From a virus, in the IMG/VR virus record IMGVR_UViG_3300028388_004683, positions 1-29,001 of that record: DNA of 29,001 bases, one strand, 5' to 3'. Numbering within the stretch: the stretch's first letter is position 1; every line of letters starts with the position of its first letter. The notes under the pieces are model-generated. The model saw nothing but the letters and a program-made list of their open reading frames with translations, had not been told where the DNA came from and did no database searches. The position numbers and the translations under genes are program-made. Positions 2 to 29,001 of this stretch are shown piece after piece.

Positions 2-121
2 GCTCAGATGAATGAACCAGCTCCAGCTAAATTGGAACCAGTCACTGCTGAGGAAGTTCCTTTTGACACTGATGAAGATGACACGATGTCATACTTCGCC
101 AAGTTGGCAAATGACGACTAG
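2..121 (+). CDS. C-terminal end of an upstream gene, possibly ssDNA-binding protein gp32 (partial)
   Basis: The open frame enters from the left edge and stops with TAG at 119-121, leaving 39 residues. The visible part is rich in Ala, Pro and Glu, then strongly acidic (PFDTDEDD), and ends in a short amphipathic stretch (TMSYFAKLANDD). An acidic tail closed by a hydrophobic patch is typical of phage ssDNA-binding proteins such as T4 gp32, where the tail recruits replication partners. That identity is an inference from tail composition only, because no DNA-binding domain is in view. The gene converges with the minus-strand block: its stop overlaps the stop of the tape-measure-like gene (118-120 on the minus strand), so there is no space for a terminator between the two coding regions. 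Confidence 0.4.
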   Translation, partial: AQMNEPAPAKLEPVTAEEVPFDTDEDDTMSYFAKLANDD

Positions 122-1848
122 TTTCTAGTCCCATCCATATAGTCATATTTATCGTAGACTGACGCTGGTGGAATCATCATAGATTGATTGGTGGTTCCAC
201 CAGATACTTGAGATCGATTACTGTTATCCATAATAATTGTTGGAGCCGATGCGCTCGGCATTTCTTCAATTTGCTCATTTAATTTAAATCCAGTAGAGCT
301 AGTAGGCGCTGTAAAATCAGCCTGACTCTTTGGTGTTGGAGTAACTTCGACTTGCACTCCAGGTGATTTTGCTCCTAGTTGTTGTGCAGCAGTTTCACCG
401 ATATTGTTATTGATCATATCGTTAATCGAGTCTAAAGGAAACGCTGTTACTTTATTACCTGTTAGATATTCACCTAGTGCTTGTCCTAGAATATCTCCAC
501 CTAAGTATCCAGCAATACCACCGACAGTAAGTCCTACAGGTCCTCCAACAGTTGCACCTAGTAAGCCACCTAGCACACCTCCACCTAATCCACCAATCGC
601 GCCGCCTATAGCAATTGCTTTGTCGGCATCAGTAAGACTATCATCCATTAATATACTTGCAACAGTACCGCCTGCAATAAGTGCTCCTAGTCCAGGAATA
701 CTTCTAGCAAATCCTAGGAACTTACTAAACCGAGGAAACTTAGATGCAGCTTTAGCTACAGTAGCTGGAGTTGCAACTTTGACACCAGATCTTTTAAGTG
801 CTTCAGCAGCCTTTTGTGGACTTACTGCTTTACCTTTTAGATCAGTAATTCCGCCAGCTTTATTGACTTTAAATCCTTGCTTTTCAAGTTTAGCAGCTTG
901 TCTTTTACTTAAATTTTTAGCTGCTTCGGTGTTTGCTTTAGTCTGATCAAACTTTGCGATTGGACCATCAGCTCCTGGAATTGGTGGTGGCTTTATCTTG
1001 CCAAGACCAGTAACAGCTGCTACAGCAGATCCAATAGCACCTGCCACAAGCTTAAATGATTTAAGTATTGCGCCTCTTAGTGTTTTACTTAGCGTTGCAA
1101 TACCGCCAATAGTAAGTAATGCTTCATCCCAATTTTCTTTAAATGCTTCAGAGTCAAACTCACCTTTCAAACTAGCATTTAGAAAATCAATACCGCCACC
1201 GACAGTTTCACTGATAAATTTTAAAATACCTTCGAAATCAGGTAAGGTCACATTAAAGAAAGACGCAATGTCTTCTCCGACGAGCTTTAGATTTTCTCCT
1301 AACTCTGATAACTTAGCTCTATTATCTTCGGTAAGTATAGCACCAATGACTGCGCCAAATAGAGCAAAGCGTTTTCCTAATAGTAATCCAAAAGAGCCTA
1401 GCTTTAAAGCTCTAAAGACAGCGTCGCCAAGAGCTTCACTTCCAGTCTCTTTTTCTATAAAGTCCGCGATCTCATCAGCAAATACGTTTGCTAATAGCGC
1501 CGGAATACCTCTCTTTAAAAGGGCAGCTCCAAGCGCGCCGATCAATCCTATTCCGGCTCCAATGCCAAAGCCTCCGGGCAAACTTCCAAGAAGATCGTCG
1601 AAAAACCCACCAAACAAACCTTTTTTACTTGACTCAGATGGTTTTGTTTTTACTCTTGATTCTTTGTCTTTTTGCTTTGATCTTGCTTCAATATCAGCTT
1701 CTAGTTGATCGCCCGCCGCAGACTTCATACCATCGATAAACGCCTTCAAGTTAGAAGATACGTTACCAATACCTTTCGAAGTTGTATCTAGTATTTTGTT
1801 CTGCTCACTTAATGTAGCGTTTACATCAGCTAGAGTAACGTCTGCCAT
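118..1848 (-). CDS. Tape-measure / baseplate hub protein, gp29-like
   Basis: This is a 576-residue protein, close in length to T4 gp29 (about 590), which sets tail length and occupies the tube. The first ~75 residues are polar and helical (charged Lys/Glu/Ser-rich up to about residue 75). Several long Gly/Ala/Leu-rich hydrophobic segments follow, at roughly 90-125, 147-172, 265-285, 375-400 and 412-465. They look like transmembrane or glycine-zipper helices, as in tape measures that reach the host membrane. The last ~90 residues are polar and Pro/Ser/Thr-rich. The ATG at 1846-1848 directly follows the TAA of the short frame at 1849-1851, and an AGGG lies about 9 nt upstream. Its place just after the gp26/frameshift pair matches the chaperone-then-tape-measure order of lambda- and P2-type phages. 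I see no diagnostic gp29 motif, so the call rests on size, composition and position. Confidence 0.65.
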   Translation of the reverse strand: MADVTLADVNATLSEQNKILDTTSKGIGNVSSNLKAFIDGMKSAAGDQLEADIEARSKQKDKESRVKTKPSESSKKGLFGGFFDDLLGSLPGGFGIGAGIGLIGALGAALLKRGIPALLANVFADEIADFIEKETGSEALGDAVFRALKLGSFGLLLGKRFALFGAVIGAILTEDNRAKLSELGENLKLVGEDIASFFNVTLPDFEGILKFISETVGGGIDFLNASLKGEFDSEAFKENWDEALLTIGGIATLSKTLRGAILKSFKLVAGAIGSAVAAVTGLGKIKPPPIPGADGPIAKFDQTKANTEAAKNLSKRQAAKLEKQGFKVNKAGGITDLKGKAVSPQKAAEALKRSGVKVATPATVAKAASKFPRFSKFLGFARSIPGLGALIAGGTVASILMDDSLTDADKAIAIGGAIGGLGGGVLGGLLGATVGGPVGLTVGGIAGYLGGDILGQALGEYLTGNKVTAFPLDSINDMINNNIGETAAQQLGAKSPGVQVEVTPTPKSQADFTAPTSSTGFKLNEQIEEMPSASAPTIIMDNSNRSQVSGGTTNQSMMIPPASVYDKYDYMDGTRN

Positions 1849-2037
1849 TTAAGAATGCCCTTGTTGTTTTGCCTTATCGTTCTTTTCTTTTATATCATTA
1901 ATCAGCATATCTAAGTAAACCTCTCTCTCCCACGGTATCATATCCTCAACTTCTTTTAACGAGTAGTGAAAATTTTGCAAAAGTTGAAAGTTAACTCTAT
2001 AATAATTTTCCAGTGTTTCATGAGAGAGGTTGATTAA
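1849..2037 (-). CDS. Frameshift extension of gp26 (gp51-like / tail-chaperone 'T' segment), no start codon of its own
   Basis: This is a 62-codon open frame in the -1 frame relative to gp26, missed by ATG-based gene calling. It begins inside the T-run that ends gp26 and stops with TAA at 1849-1851, directly before the ATG of the tape-measure gene. The peptide reads LINLSHETLENYYRVNFQLL, then a segment containing YSLKEVEDMIPWEREVYLDM, then a Lys-rich end (KEKNDKAKQQGHS). The helix-W/P-helix look resembles C-terminal extensions of phage tail assembly chaperones and the small proteins labelled gp51-like in marine T4-like phages. The frame has no ATG, GTG or TTG before the internal ATG that would leave only 30 residues, and no ribosome-binding site. 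I infer that it is translated as an extension of gp26, giving a 298-residue fusion. Internal initiation at ATC or CTG is possible but less likely. Confidence 0.65.
   Translation of the reverse strand, partial: LINLSHETLENYYRVNFQLLQNFHYSLKEVEDMIPWEREVYLDMLINDIKEKNDKAKQQGHS
1918..2031 (-). repeat. Inverted repeat downstream of the slippery run, 10-bp arms
   Basis: On the minus strand AACCTCTCTC (2031-2022) is perfectly complementary to GAGAGAGGTT (1927-1918), with a loop of about 94 nt. It starts 5 nt after the heptamer. It could be a long-range stimulator of frameshifting. The arms are low-complexity CT/GA repeats, so chance is a real alternative. Confidence 0.35.
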
Positions 2038-2744
2038 AAAAAATCATCTAATCCTTTTAATAGCTTCTCGTTTTCAGCGCCACAGTTGATACAATTAAAT
2101 TGTACTGTATGCTCCATTGCTGGAAGATTCTGCGCAAACTCAGCAATTTGACTAAACTGATTTGTGTTCATCGACTCTATGAACTTTTCTATTTCGCTTC
2201 GTGGCTCGTCTTTTATTCGAATACTTTCTTCTTCAGTTATGATAGAATCGATACACGCCATAATAACTTCCATTATGATTTCTGATGTAGACTCTGAGCT
2301 GAAAAACTTATCGTTTGTAAGAAGCTTAGAATAATTTGGATATACTAGCTTAACAGAAATTTCATCTGTCAATTCAATTGTTTTAGACGGCTCGTCGACT
2401 TCTATTTGAATCTCTTCTAAATTAAGATCAATATCGTTTGGTGTATCACACTCTATACAATTGATGATGAGCTCTACTTTTTCGCCGACAGATTTTCCAC
2501 GAATTTGTGTGAACATGTAATCAATGTCAAACGTAGTAAGAGAGTAAACGTCAATATCGTCAACAACACAAGCAACAACTGTATCTAAAATTGCTTGAAT
2601 AACGTTCTTTTTGTCTTGTGTCTCGTAAGCAAGTAAAAGAACTTTTTGCTCTTTTACTAGAAAAGGTCTAAACCGTACAATCTGTTGTGTCGACGGTATT
2701 GTCAATTCATATTTTGGTTCTGTATTCAACGATGGTAATGCCAT
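2034..2744 (-). CDS. 26: Baseplate hub assembly protein gp26 (T4 baseplate protein family), short form
   Basis: The 236-residue protein begins MALPSLNTEPKYELTIPSTQ, followed by VRFRPFLVKEQKVLLLAYE. This is the characteristic start of gp26-type hub proteins of T4-like marine phages (T4 gp26 is about 208 residues). Two CxxC pairs, C96/C99 (NCIEC) and C218/C221 (NCINC), could form a four-cysteine zinc site bringing the two ends together. The protein ends GLDDFF, with FF encoded by TTTTTT inside the slippery run. In T4, gp26 is needed to build the central hub. Its position before a frameshift and a tape-measure-like gene suggests that the role here is as a tail assembly chaperone rather than a fixed hub part (inference). 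Start choice: ATG at 2742-2744 with a strong AGGAG 7 nt upstream. It follows the tube-protein gene by 8 nt. Confidence 0.87.
   Translation of the reverse strand: MALPSLNTEPKYELTIPSTQQIVRFRPFLVKEQKVLLLAYETQDKKNVIQAILDTVVACVVDDIDVYSLTTFDIDYMFTQIRGKSVGEKVELIINCIECDTPNDIDLNLEEIQIEVDEPSKTIELTDEISVKLVYPNYSKLLTNDKFFSSESTSEIIMEVIMACIDSIITEEESIRIKDEPRSEIEKFIESMNTNQFSQIAEFAQNLPAMEHTVQFNCINCGAENEKLLKGLDDFF
2036..2043 (-). promoter_or_regulatory. Putative -1 ribosomal frameshift site, T_TTT_TTT
   Basis: On the minus strand the end of gp26 reads GAT TTT TTT TAA. The last T of GAT plus two TTT codons form a perfect slippery heptamer (X_XXY_YYZ with all T), immediately followed by the zero-frame stop. Slipping back one base gives TTT TTT TTA ATC and enters the 62-codon extension. 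Five bases downstream begins a 10-nt element (2022-2031) that is perfectly complementary to 1918-1927, so a long-range stem at the usual spacer distance is possible. RNA polymerase slippage on the T8 run would give the same fusion. Confidence 0.65.
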
Positions 2745-2752
2745 GATAACTC

Positions 2753-3454
2753 CTACACTATACTACCAATATTTAAGTCAAGATCGAGATCGATAAAGTT
2801 CTGCGATGGTTCAATTATCTTCCATCTCGTATAAGATAACTGAACGGTTAGTTCTAATAATCCGTCAAGATCATTTGATAAATCAACGGTGCTGATCGAT
2901 GTAGGAAATGCCTCTTCTAGCTCTATGCTATAAACACTTCCTTCGCCTACTCTAGCGTTTAAAGTTACAGGTCCTAAGCTTCTACTAATTGCTCCTTGAG
3001 CTTTTCTTAGCTGATGAATCTTAACACTTCGCGAATATTCATTCTTATATGCAACTTCACTAGTTTCTTCATTTACTATTTTCTTTCGCCATATGTCAAA
3101 GTACCGTTTAACACCATAGTCATTGAGTAAGTAAAATGACATTGAAACATCATCCTGCGCAAATCCGTACGCTATCTTTTCTCTGTATTGACCAATGTTT
3201 CTTTCTGTAGTAAGTATTTGCTTACCCGGCATATTCACTCGAGTGCACAATATGTTTAGATCTTTTGGTACAGCAGCAGCTGTGTTAAACACACCAGGAA
3301 CAGATGGTATTAGTCCAGCGTTTCCACTTAATATTTCATTAGCTGCAAATGTTAGAAGATTTCCTGCGAACGGAAGCTCTACCAGATACTGATTTGGTCT
3401 TGCAAAGCCAAGTTTTGAAGAAACTCTTGCTTTTAATTCGTTGATTGCACTCAT
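2753..3454 (-). CDS. T4 gp19-fold tail tube protein, probably the baseplate tube initiator gp54
   Basis: The protein has 233 residues. The N-terminus (LGFARPNQYLVELP) and centre (CTRVNMPGKQILTTERNIGQ, then FAQDDVSMSFYLLNDYGVKR YFDIW) are typical of the gp19 tail-tube family, which also includes the tube initiators gp54 and gp48. The main tube gene gp19 normally sits beside the sheath gene gp18, which is absent here. This copy lies with hub genes (gp26, tape measure), so I prefer the gp54 role of seeding tube polymerisation on the hub. T4 gp54 is longer (about 320 residues), so a gp19 paralogue is the main alternative. The start is ATG at 3452-3454, sharing its A with the TAA of the upstream gene (TAATG), which indicates translational coupling. 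No strong ribosome-binding site is visible beyond GGAT. Confidence 0.68.
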   Translation of the reverse strand: MSAINELKARVSSKLGFARPNQYLVELPFAGNLLTFAANEILSGNAGLIPSVPGVFNTAAAVPKDLNILCTRVNMPGKQILTTERNIGQYREKIAYGFAQDDVSMSFYLLNDYGVKRYFDIWRKKIVNEETSEVAYKNEYSRSVKIHQLRKAQGAISRSLGPVTLNARVGEGSVYSIELEEAFPTSISTVDLSNDLDGLLELTVQLSYTRWKIIEPSQNFIDLDLDLNIGSIV

Positions 3455-28114: not shown

Positions 28115-28453
28115 GTGGCAACTCCATTAAACGTATTTAAAACAGTGACTGCTGATCTTGTTGATTCTGATCAAGTAATCTATACAGCACCTCTTGGAAT
28201 TACTGCTATTGTTTTGATGGCGCAAGCCACAAATATTAGTGAAGACGAGACAAGTATAACTTTTTCTCACAATGAAACGACAAACTCTATTCAAACAGAG
28301 CTTGTTAAGAACTTTCCAGTTCTTCCAAAAGACGCAGCTAGTGTAATCACTGGTAAATTAGTAGTTGAACAGAACGATCAAATAAAAGCTTTTGCTGGTG
28401 AAAGCAATAAGCTGAAGGTTACAATTTCTTTATTGGAATCATTAAATGCGTAG
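28115..28453 (+). CDS. Small conserved virion protein following the long fibre
   Basis: The 112-residue protein is a single beta-sandwich-like domain: [40 protein letters not shown], then [33 protein letters not shown] and [14 protein letters not shown]. This kind of small protein is common in the fibre clusters of marine T4-like phages and has no proven function. It may decorate or cap the fibre. Start is GTG at 28115 with GGAGG 8 nt upstream, located in the last codons of the long fibre gene. Its end overlaps the collagen-like gene by 8 nt. Codon use is like that of its neighbours. Confidence 0.7.
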
Positions 28454-29001
28454 TCTTGTTTCACTTTCTGGAAGAATCAGAAAAAGATCTGGTATCGATT
28501 TAGATTCTGATCGTTATCGCTTTATATCTTTAGATCAAGCAGAACCAGATTTTGGTCTTCCCGATAGTGGGTTTAGATTTGAAGGCTTTGGCGTCGCGGC
28601 TTCTTTCGGAAGTGGAACGCGTACTTTTGCTGGACTTGGTGAAGGTCTGGCGTATGACTCTGATAGCAAATTAATCTTTGTCGACTCAGGCGGTGCTCAA
28701 GGACCACAGGGTCCTCAAGGAGAAATCGGCCCTCAGGGTATTCAAGGCATACAGGGTCTTCAAGGAATTCAGGGTGATTCCGGTCCTCAAGGCATTCAAG
28801 GCCTTCAGGGTCTTCAAGGTATTCAAGGCCTGCAAGGTATCCAAGGGCTTCAGGGTATTCAAGGAGACTCTGGAGCTCAGGGTATTCAAGGTATCCAAGG
28901 CCTTCAGGGTATCCAAGGAATCCAGGGTGACTCTGGTGTCCAAGGCTTACAAGGTATCCAAGGCCTTCAGGGTATCCAAGGAATCCAGGGTGACTCTGGT
29001 G
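28446..29001 (+). CDS. Collagen-like tail fibre, 5' part (runs off the window)
   Basis: The ATG at 28446-28448 overlaps the end of the previous gene, and 185 codons are visible with no stop. The first ~78 residues are a globular head ([20 protein letters not shown], then [32 protein letters not shown]). From about residue 79 the chain is pure Gly-X-Y, almost entirely G-[I/L/P/A/V]-Q with a GDS triplet after blocks of 9, 9, 6 and 6 triplets. There are 34 full triplets before the edge. The shaft should form a collagen triple helix without hydroxyproline, as known for bacterial and phage collagen-like fibres. Gln in the Y position is the striking bias. The receptor-binding end and total length are not in view. 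Confidence 0.85.
28887..29001 (+). repeat. Perfect 52-nt direct repeat at 63-nt spacing in the collagen-like shaft
   Basis: Positions 28887-28938 and 28950-29001 are identical over 52 nt. The period is 63 nt, equal to 21 residues or seven Gly-X-Y triplets, each ending in GDS. Exact identity at the DNA level, including third codon positions, points to recent duplication or recombination. The repeat may continue beyond the window. Confidence 0.9.

Follow-up and report, generated by a model that had tools for sequence, protein, structure and literature searches.

A Slippery Heptamer and a Start-less gp51-Like Frame at the End of Gene 26: A Probable Programmed Frameshift in Candidate Tail Chaperone Genes of T4-Like Phages

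A Start-less −1 Frame Follows gp26

In a 29,001-nucleotide stretch of DNA from a marine T4-like phage (IMG/VR record IMGVR_UViG_3300028388_004683, positions 1 to 29,001; hereafter the window), a gene for a T4-like gp26 protein ends in a slippery heptamer and is followed, in the −1 frame, by a gp51-like region that has no start codon near its beginning. Gp26 and the start-less frame are very probably one gene that yields two tail assembly chaperones by −1 ribosomal slippage. In the mechanism we propose, the majority of ribosomes would terminate at the TAA codon of gp26 to give a short form of 236 residues; a minority, paused by the pairing of an upstream Shine-Dalgarno (SD)-like sequence with 16S rRNA, would shift one base backward at U_UUU_UUU and so produce a long form of 298 residues that carries the gp51 domain. 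Both forms would act as tail assembly chaperones in the manner of the lambda proteins G and GT (PMC5009743), with many short copies coating the tape-measure protein and a few long copies recruiting tube or hub subunits to it, and T4 would obtain the same pair from its paralogous genes 26 and 51. We infer how often ribosomes slip, that the products are chaperones and which partners they bind; the conserved cassette, the selection for coding in its −1 frame and the paralogous relation to T4 gp26 and gp51 come directly from the computations described below.

The gp26 gene (2744–2034, minus strand) ends in the codons GAT (2048–2046), GAT (2045–2043), TTT, TTT and TAA (2036–2034). A run of eight T's (T8; 2043–2036, minus strand) contains the heptamer T_TTT_TTT (2043–2037), which abuts the zero-frame stop, just as a sequence-only reading of this DNA had claimed. 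That reading was also right that the −1 frame meets no stop for 62 codons, until a TAA (1851–1849), that the ATG (1848–1846) of a 576-residue gene follows directly, and that the frame has no ribosome-binding site: none was found before the ATG at codon 33 or the TTG at codon 20. Its statement that no ATG, GTG or TTG occurs before about codon 33 stands for ATG, the earliest of which is indeed codon 33, and fails for TTG. Joining the −1 extension (1849–2037, minus strand; 62 codons and a stop) to gp26 at the slip site gives the predicted 298-residue fusion. Its sequence reads FF|LINLSHETLENYY... in the −1 frame across the slip site and ...GLDDFF|LINLSHETLENYYRVNFQLL... where gp26 passes into that frame, and the predicted junction peptide is ...GLDDFFLINLSHETLENYYR. 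The +1 frame was considered as an extension and rejected; in the window it closes within 16 nucleotides of the gp26 stop.

The Heptamer and the −1 Frame Are Conserved

The sequence-only reading had named conservation of the slippery run and of the open, start-less −1 frame in relatives as the point to check, and both are indeed conserved. From viral contigs and isolate phages we gathered 196 loci in which the end of gp26 is complete and grouped them into 115 lineages with less than 80% protein identity. The motif T_TTT_TTN was present in 113 of the 115, its last two triplets in the zero frame and 0, 1 or 3 codons before the stop; the counts that follow refer to these 113 lineages. The final base was C in 63, T in 41, A in seven and G in two. 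The codon that precedes TTT TTN was GAT, AGT, TCT, GCT, AAT or GGT, and its third base was T without exception. Elsewhere in gp26, in-frame T_TTT_TT occurred 15 times in 25,782 other codons. Naive probabilities came to 10^-40 and 10^-18, figures that overstate independence. Because the loci are related, a count of changes on a tree is the safer statement: the preceding codon changed at least 34 times (24 amino-acid changes), its third base, the X position of the slip site, changed zero times, and 13 comparison columns had 20–56 third-base changes.

Purifying selection acts on the −1 frame. Its median ratio of nonsynonymous to synonymous polymorphism (pN/pS) over 864 close pairs was 0.22; the remaining two frames gave 1.0 and 2.5. 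Between the slip site and 30 nucleotides past the stop, ATG is absent from 66 of the 113 lineages, and ATG, GTG and TTG are all absent from 35. Among the cyanophages, the annotated start methionine of gp51 alternates with leucine inside a peptide that is conserved on the 5′ side of that methionine as well. The heptamer and the open −1 frame are thus not a product of chance, and the slip signal is retained in most of the wider T4-like superfamily that we sampled.

T4 gp26 and gp51 Are Paralogues

The gp26 protein of the window belongs to family PF12322 (E 1.6e-57, 195 bits; cut-off 24.5), and its residues 1–236 align to positions 5–232 of the 282-position profile phrog_150. The 62 residues of the −1 frame match phrog_634, annotated as "baseplate hub assembly catalyst" (gp51), with an E value of 3.7e-23, which bears out the earlier description of this frame as gp51-like. 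The same residues also match the C-terminal end of phrog_150 (236–282) and can be aligned to gp51 of T4 and RB49.

T4 gp26 (208 residues) and T4 gp51 (249 residues) are both members of PF12322 and phrog_150 and are therefore paralogues of one family. T4 gp26 stops at phrog_150 position 235, which is the frameshift point, and T4 gp51 continues to position 280 and includes the part that matches phrog_634. An hhalign comparison of frameshift-type gp26 with T4-type gp51 gave a probability of 97.8 (E 1.2e-12). Given that T4 gp26 ends where its relatives slip and that gp51 is full length, T4 has two genes, separate and on opposite strands, in place of the single frameshifted gene of its relatives. 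A sequence search of the PDB with gp26 and T4 gp51 found no relatives.

A Purine-Rich Block and, in Part of the Lineages, a Hairpin Flank the Slip Site

An SD-like purine block spans −15 to −9 relative to the heptamer, with G at −11 and −10 in 99% of lineages. Its mean best energy of pairing with the anti-SD sequence was −6.9 kcal/mol, compared with −1.7 elsewhere in the gene. When the same residues were recoded synonymously the mean was −5.07 (standard deviation of replicate means, 0.14). The observed pairing is thus stronger than recoding gives, and the block is evidently maintained both by codon choice and by constraint on the amino acids. In the window the conserved purine-rich element is AAAGGA (2052–2057, minus strand), 8 nucleotides 5′ of the heptamer, with an anti-SD energy of −5.4.

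On the 3′ side, bases +12 to +52 fold more than shuffled sequences (mean z −1.86 ± 0.20; control segments +0.05 to −0.43). An 11-bp hairpin beginning 5 nucleotides past the heptamer was found in 31 of the 63 T_TTT_TTC lineages, mostly cyanophages. One of its pairs shows T-A, G-C and A-T swaps; with the pairing shifted by 1–6 nucleotides there was at most one such case. A parsimony count of the 14–28 pair over all lineages is uninformative, since most lineages are without the hairpin.

Gene Neighborhood and Predicted Folds

The gp26 gene lies between a gene for a tail-tube-family protein (2753–3454, minus strand; phrog_45, E 1.5e-31) and the large tape-measure-like gene of 576 residues (118–1848, minus strand), which has weak matches to tape-measure PHROGs, the best at 1.2e-5. 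AlphaFold models were confident, with a predicted local distance difference test (pLDDT) score of 90 for gp26 and 84 for T4-type gp51. The PDB fold matches to gp26 with the best probability were the HK97 tail assembly chaperone 2ob9 (0.85, E 0.63) and 3fgx (0.75), at E values of 0.6–1.1. The proposal, made from the sequence alone, that gp26 is the G-like form and the 298-residue fusion the GT-like form draws support from the paralogous T4 pair gp26 and gp51 and from gene order, and weakly from fold (2ob9). At the far end of the window, the last open reading frame (ORF; 28446–29001, plus strand) is cut by the window end and contains collagen-like GxQGxxG repeats; it possibly encodes a tail-fiber-like protein.

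Alternative Explanations

Several observations weigh against a frameshifted pair of tail chaperones. The 576-residue gene, which the sequence-only reading called tape-measure-like, has the position and size of a tape-measure gene, but we found no sequence homology between its product and T4 gp29, even with an eight-member profile of syntenic genes. No stable downstream hairpin was found in the window (−1.6 kcal/mol). The fold match of gp26 to the HK97 chaperone 2ob9 is weak (E 0.6–1.8, probability 0.63–0.85, target template modeling [TM] score 0.40–0.52), and no match at all had an E value below 0.001, so the likeness is suggestive only, and a fold search with the gp51 model returned no HK97 chaperone among the matches listed and nothing useful. 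In 37 of the 113 lineages, many of them cyanophages, an ATG in the −1 frame lies 5 nucleotides past the gp26 stop and could start gp51 alone; public records annotate gp51 from there. Finally, two lineages, the only such among those dereplicated, have a TAATG overlap and no heptamer: L030 (Vibrio phage K475) and L200 (Rhizobium phage RHph_I1_18).

These last two observations would fit a small independent gp51 gene on which translation re-initiates once gp26 has terminated, with no fusion made. We regard this as very unlikely. The window has no −1 frame ATG before codon 33, and the peptide is conserved upstream of the cyanophage ATG; the lineages with no ATG, or with no ATG, GTG or TTG, around the stop, and the exchange of the supposed start methionine for leucine, argue in the same direction. 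Furthermore, T4-type gp51 is homologous to the fusion over its full length, and the register of the heptamer has been kept with no change at the X position. For L030 and L200 themselves, the overlap suggests that frameshifting may have been lost and separate translation of gp51 adopted. Bacterial RNA polymerases can slip on runs of about eight T's, and T8 in the window has that length, so the long form might instead arise from slippage during transcription. This, too, seems highly improbable, as 63 of the 113 lineages have just six T's and then C. What is conserved is X_XXY_YYZ in the register of the codons; the SD-like element is spaced from it as at known ribosomal −1 sites, and many lineages have a hairpin a few nucleotides 3′ of the heptamer.

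A frameshift could be real and its products nonetheless be structural or catalytic proteins of the hub rather than lambda-type tail chaperones, a view for which the weak likeness of gp26 to a solved tail chaperone speaks. We think it unlikely: T4 gp26 and gp51 are listed as hub assembly chaperones, and gp51 as missing from the particle (PMC3004832); the short/long pair, the frameshift and the position between tube-family and tape-measure-like genes are hallmarks of tail chaperones; the two PDB matches of highest probability are the HK97 tail chaperone 2ob9 and 3fgx; and the same assignment was made, by the title of their paper, by Vladimirov et al. (2022). As for a sequencing error or a decayed gene, that is, a locus that is truly a single ORF or a gp51 that is dead, a homopolymer run is a typical site of error, and one contig, L165 (IMGVR_UViG_3300049043_000112), has a slip site 2 bases short relative to its relatives, so that gp26 and gp51 form one ORF of 297 residues. 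That contig may represent either a natural fusion, which would leave no short form, or a mistake of assembly. In 193 of the 196 loci, however, finished isolate genomes among them, the heptamer is kept and the frame breaks at the same place, and selection on the −1 frame is purifying; error, which the sequence-only reading had listed as a possible refutation, or decay is refuted for the family, and its probability for the window is negligible.

Distribution and Direction of Change

The cassette is found in the Kyanoviridae (P-SSM4, P-RSM4, P-SSM5, S-PM2, C48C1 and S-CRM01), in Straboviridae outside the T4-type branch (phi-pp2, Aeromonas AP1, 65, PX29 and Aeh1), in the Pootjesviridae (RL2RES and Atu_ph04), and in Ochrobactrum phage OC and Stenotrophomonas phage DLP6. 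The two-gene arrangement is that of T4-type phages: T4, RB49, Tulanevirus, and Providencia and Serratia X20 phages. In one T4-type locus (L209, from position 2501) the gp51 ORF ends after 120 residues and similarity goes on beyond it, the result of a frameshift or of an assembly error.

None of the frameshift-type records that we examined annotates a joined gp26-gp51 coding sequence. The first 200 residues of gp51 are said to be "lacking" in cyanophages (Sullivan et al.), and gp51 was reported in 2010 as missing from Aeh1. If the frame is reached by slippage, the residues seem to be missing from cyanophage gp51 because gp26 itself supplies them, and gp51 seems to be missing from Aeh1 because its start-less −1 frame was left unannotated. 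In Aeh1 a frame of 57 codons follows GAT TTT TTC GAC TGA, and its first ATG comes at about codon 17; positions 3278–3443 of the Aeh1 locus (L215), an unannotated interval, hold this start-less gp51 frame. The −1 frame is likewise present, unannotated and without a nearby ATG in Aeromonas AP1 and S-MbCM6. A widespread annotation can thus be corrected: cyanophage gp51 is not truncated, and Aeh1, AP1 and S-MbCM6 do have gp51.

T4-type gp26 (15 sequences, support 87) and T4-type gp51 (15 sequences, support 100) each form a monophyletic group in a tree built on the domain they share, apart from the frameshift-type proteins; the branches of this tree are long. Parsimony would place the frameshift first and the duplication later. 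We consider it reasonably probable that the cassette, consisting of the SD-like element, U_UUU_UUN and often the hairpin, is ancestral for the tail chaperones of the T4 superfamily and was replaced in the T4-type branch by duplication, gene 26 losing the C-terminal domain and gene 51 the slip site. If so, the "hub catalysts" of T4 are a frozen record of a lost frameshift.

Comparison with Known Systems

The sequence-only reading knew of no such description for T4-like phages, a claim of novelty that is not fully upheld. The tail-chaperone genes of T4-like phages were identified by Vladimirov, Gautam and Davidson (Virology 2022;566:9-15), as represented in PMC10885494 and PMC12846349. The former cites that paper for a short gene alongside a longer, fused one in T4-like phages, and the latter for polyT −1 frameshift signals in the T4-like genes for the N-terminal form of the tail assembly chaperone (TAC), TAC-N; the title of the paper itself stresses a mechanism other than frameshifting. 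Judging from these two citations, the core idea is already in print, and the TAC-N and TAC-NC genes to which they refer are the same genes as the short and fusion forms of the window. For the SD-like element and the hairpin, for the test on the tree and for our account of the gp51 anomalies in Aeh1 and the cyanophages, we found no description in the accessible literature, in which Vladimirov et al. (2022) was represented by papers that cite it; as far as this search goes, the two stimulators are unreported.

The gp26 of T4 corresponds to the short form of the window from end to end and its gp51 to the whole fusion, but T4 encodes them in two genes, on opposite strands, and the window in a single frameshifted one. 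Gene duplication and programmed frameshifting would then be interchangeable routes to the same pair of proteins, and the T4-like phages offer a clear case. In Escherichia coli dnaX, −1 frameshifting at the heptamer A_AAA_AAG is stimulated by an SD sequence and a downstream hairpin. The T4-like cassette resembles it in having an SD-like element about 10 nucleotides upstream, a heptamer and a hairpin, and differs in that a U-run takes the place of A_AAA_AAG and the hairpin occurs in only part of the lineages. In the Vandenendeviridae and Andersonviridae, TAC-N genes end with a conserved −1 frame and a polyT motif, the frame being mis-annotated as a hypothetical gene (PMC12846349); these are other phage families, and their motif is GTTTTT. 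Lambda G and GT, finally, are a short form and a long one made by −1 frameshifting, and the tape-measure gene comes after them (PMC5009743), and the same 2016 paper describes G-T frameshifting as widely conserved "except T4." Both lambda and the window thus have a short and a −1 long form before a tape-measure or tape-measure-like gene, whereas the slippery sequence, the stimulators and the sizes of the domains differ between them.
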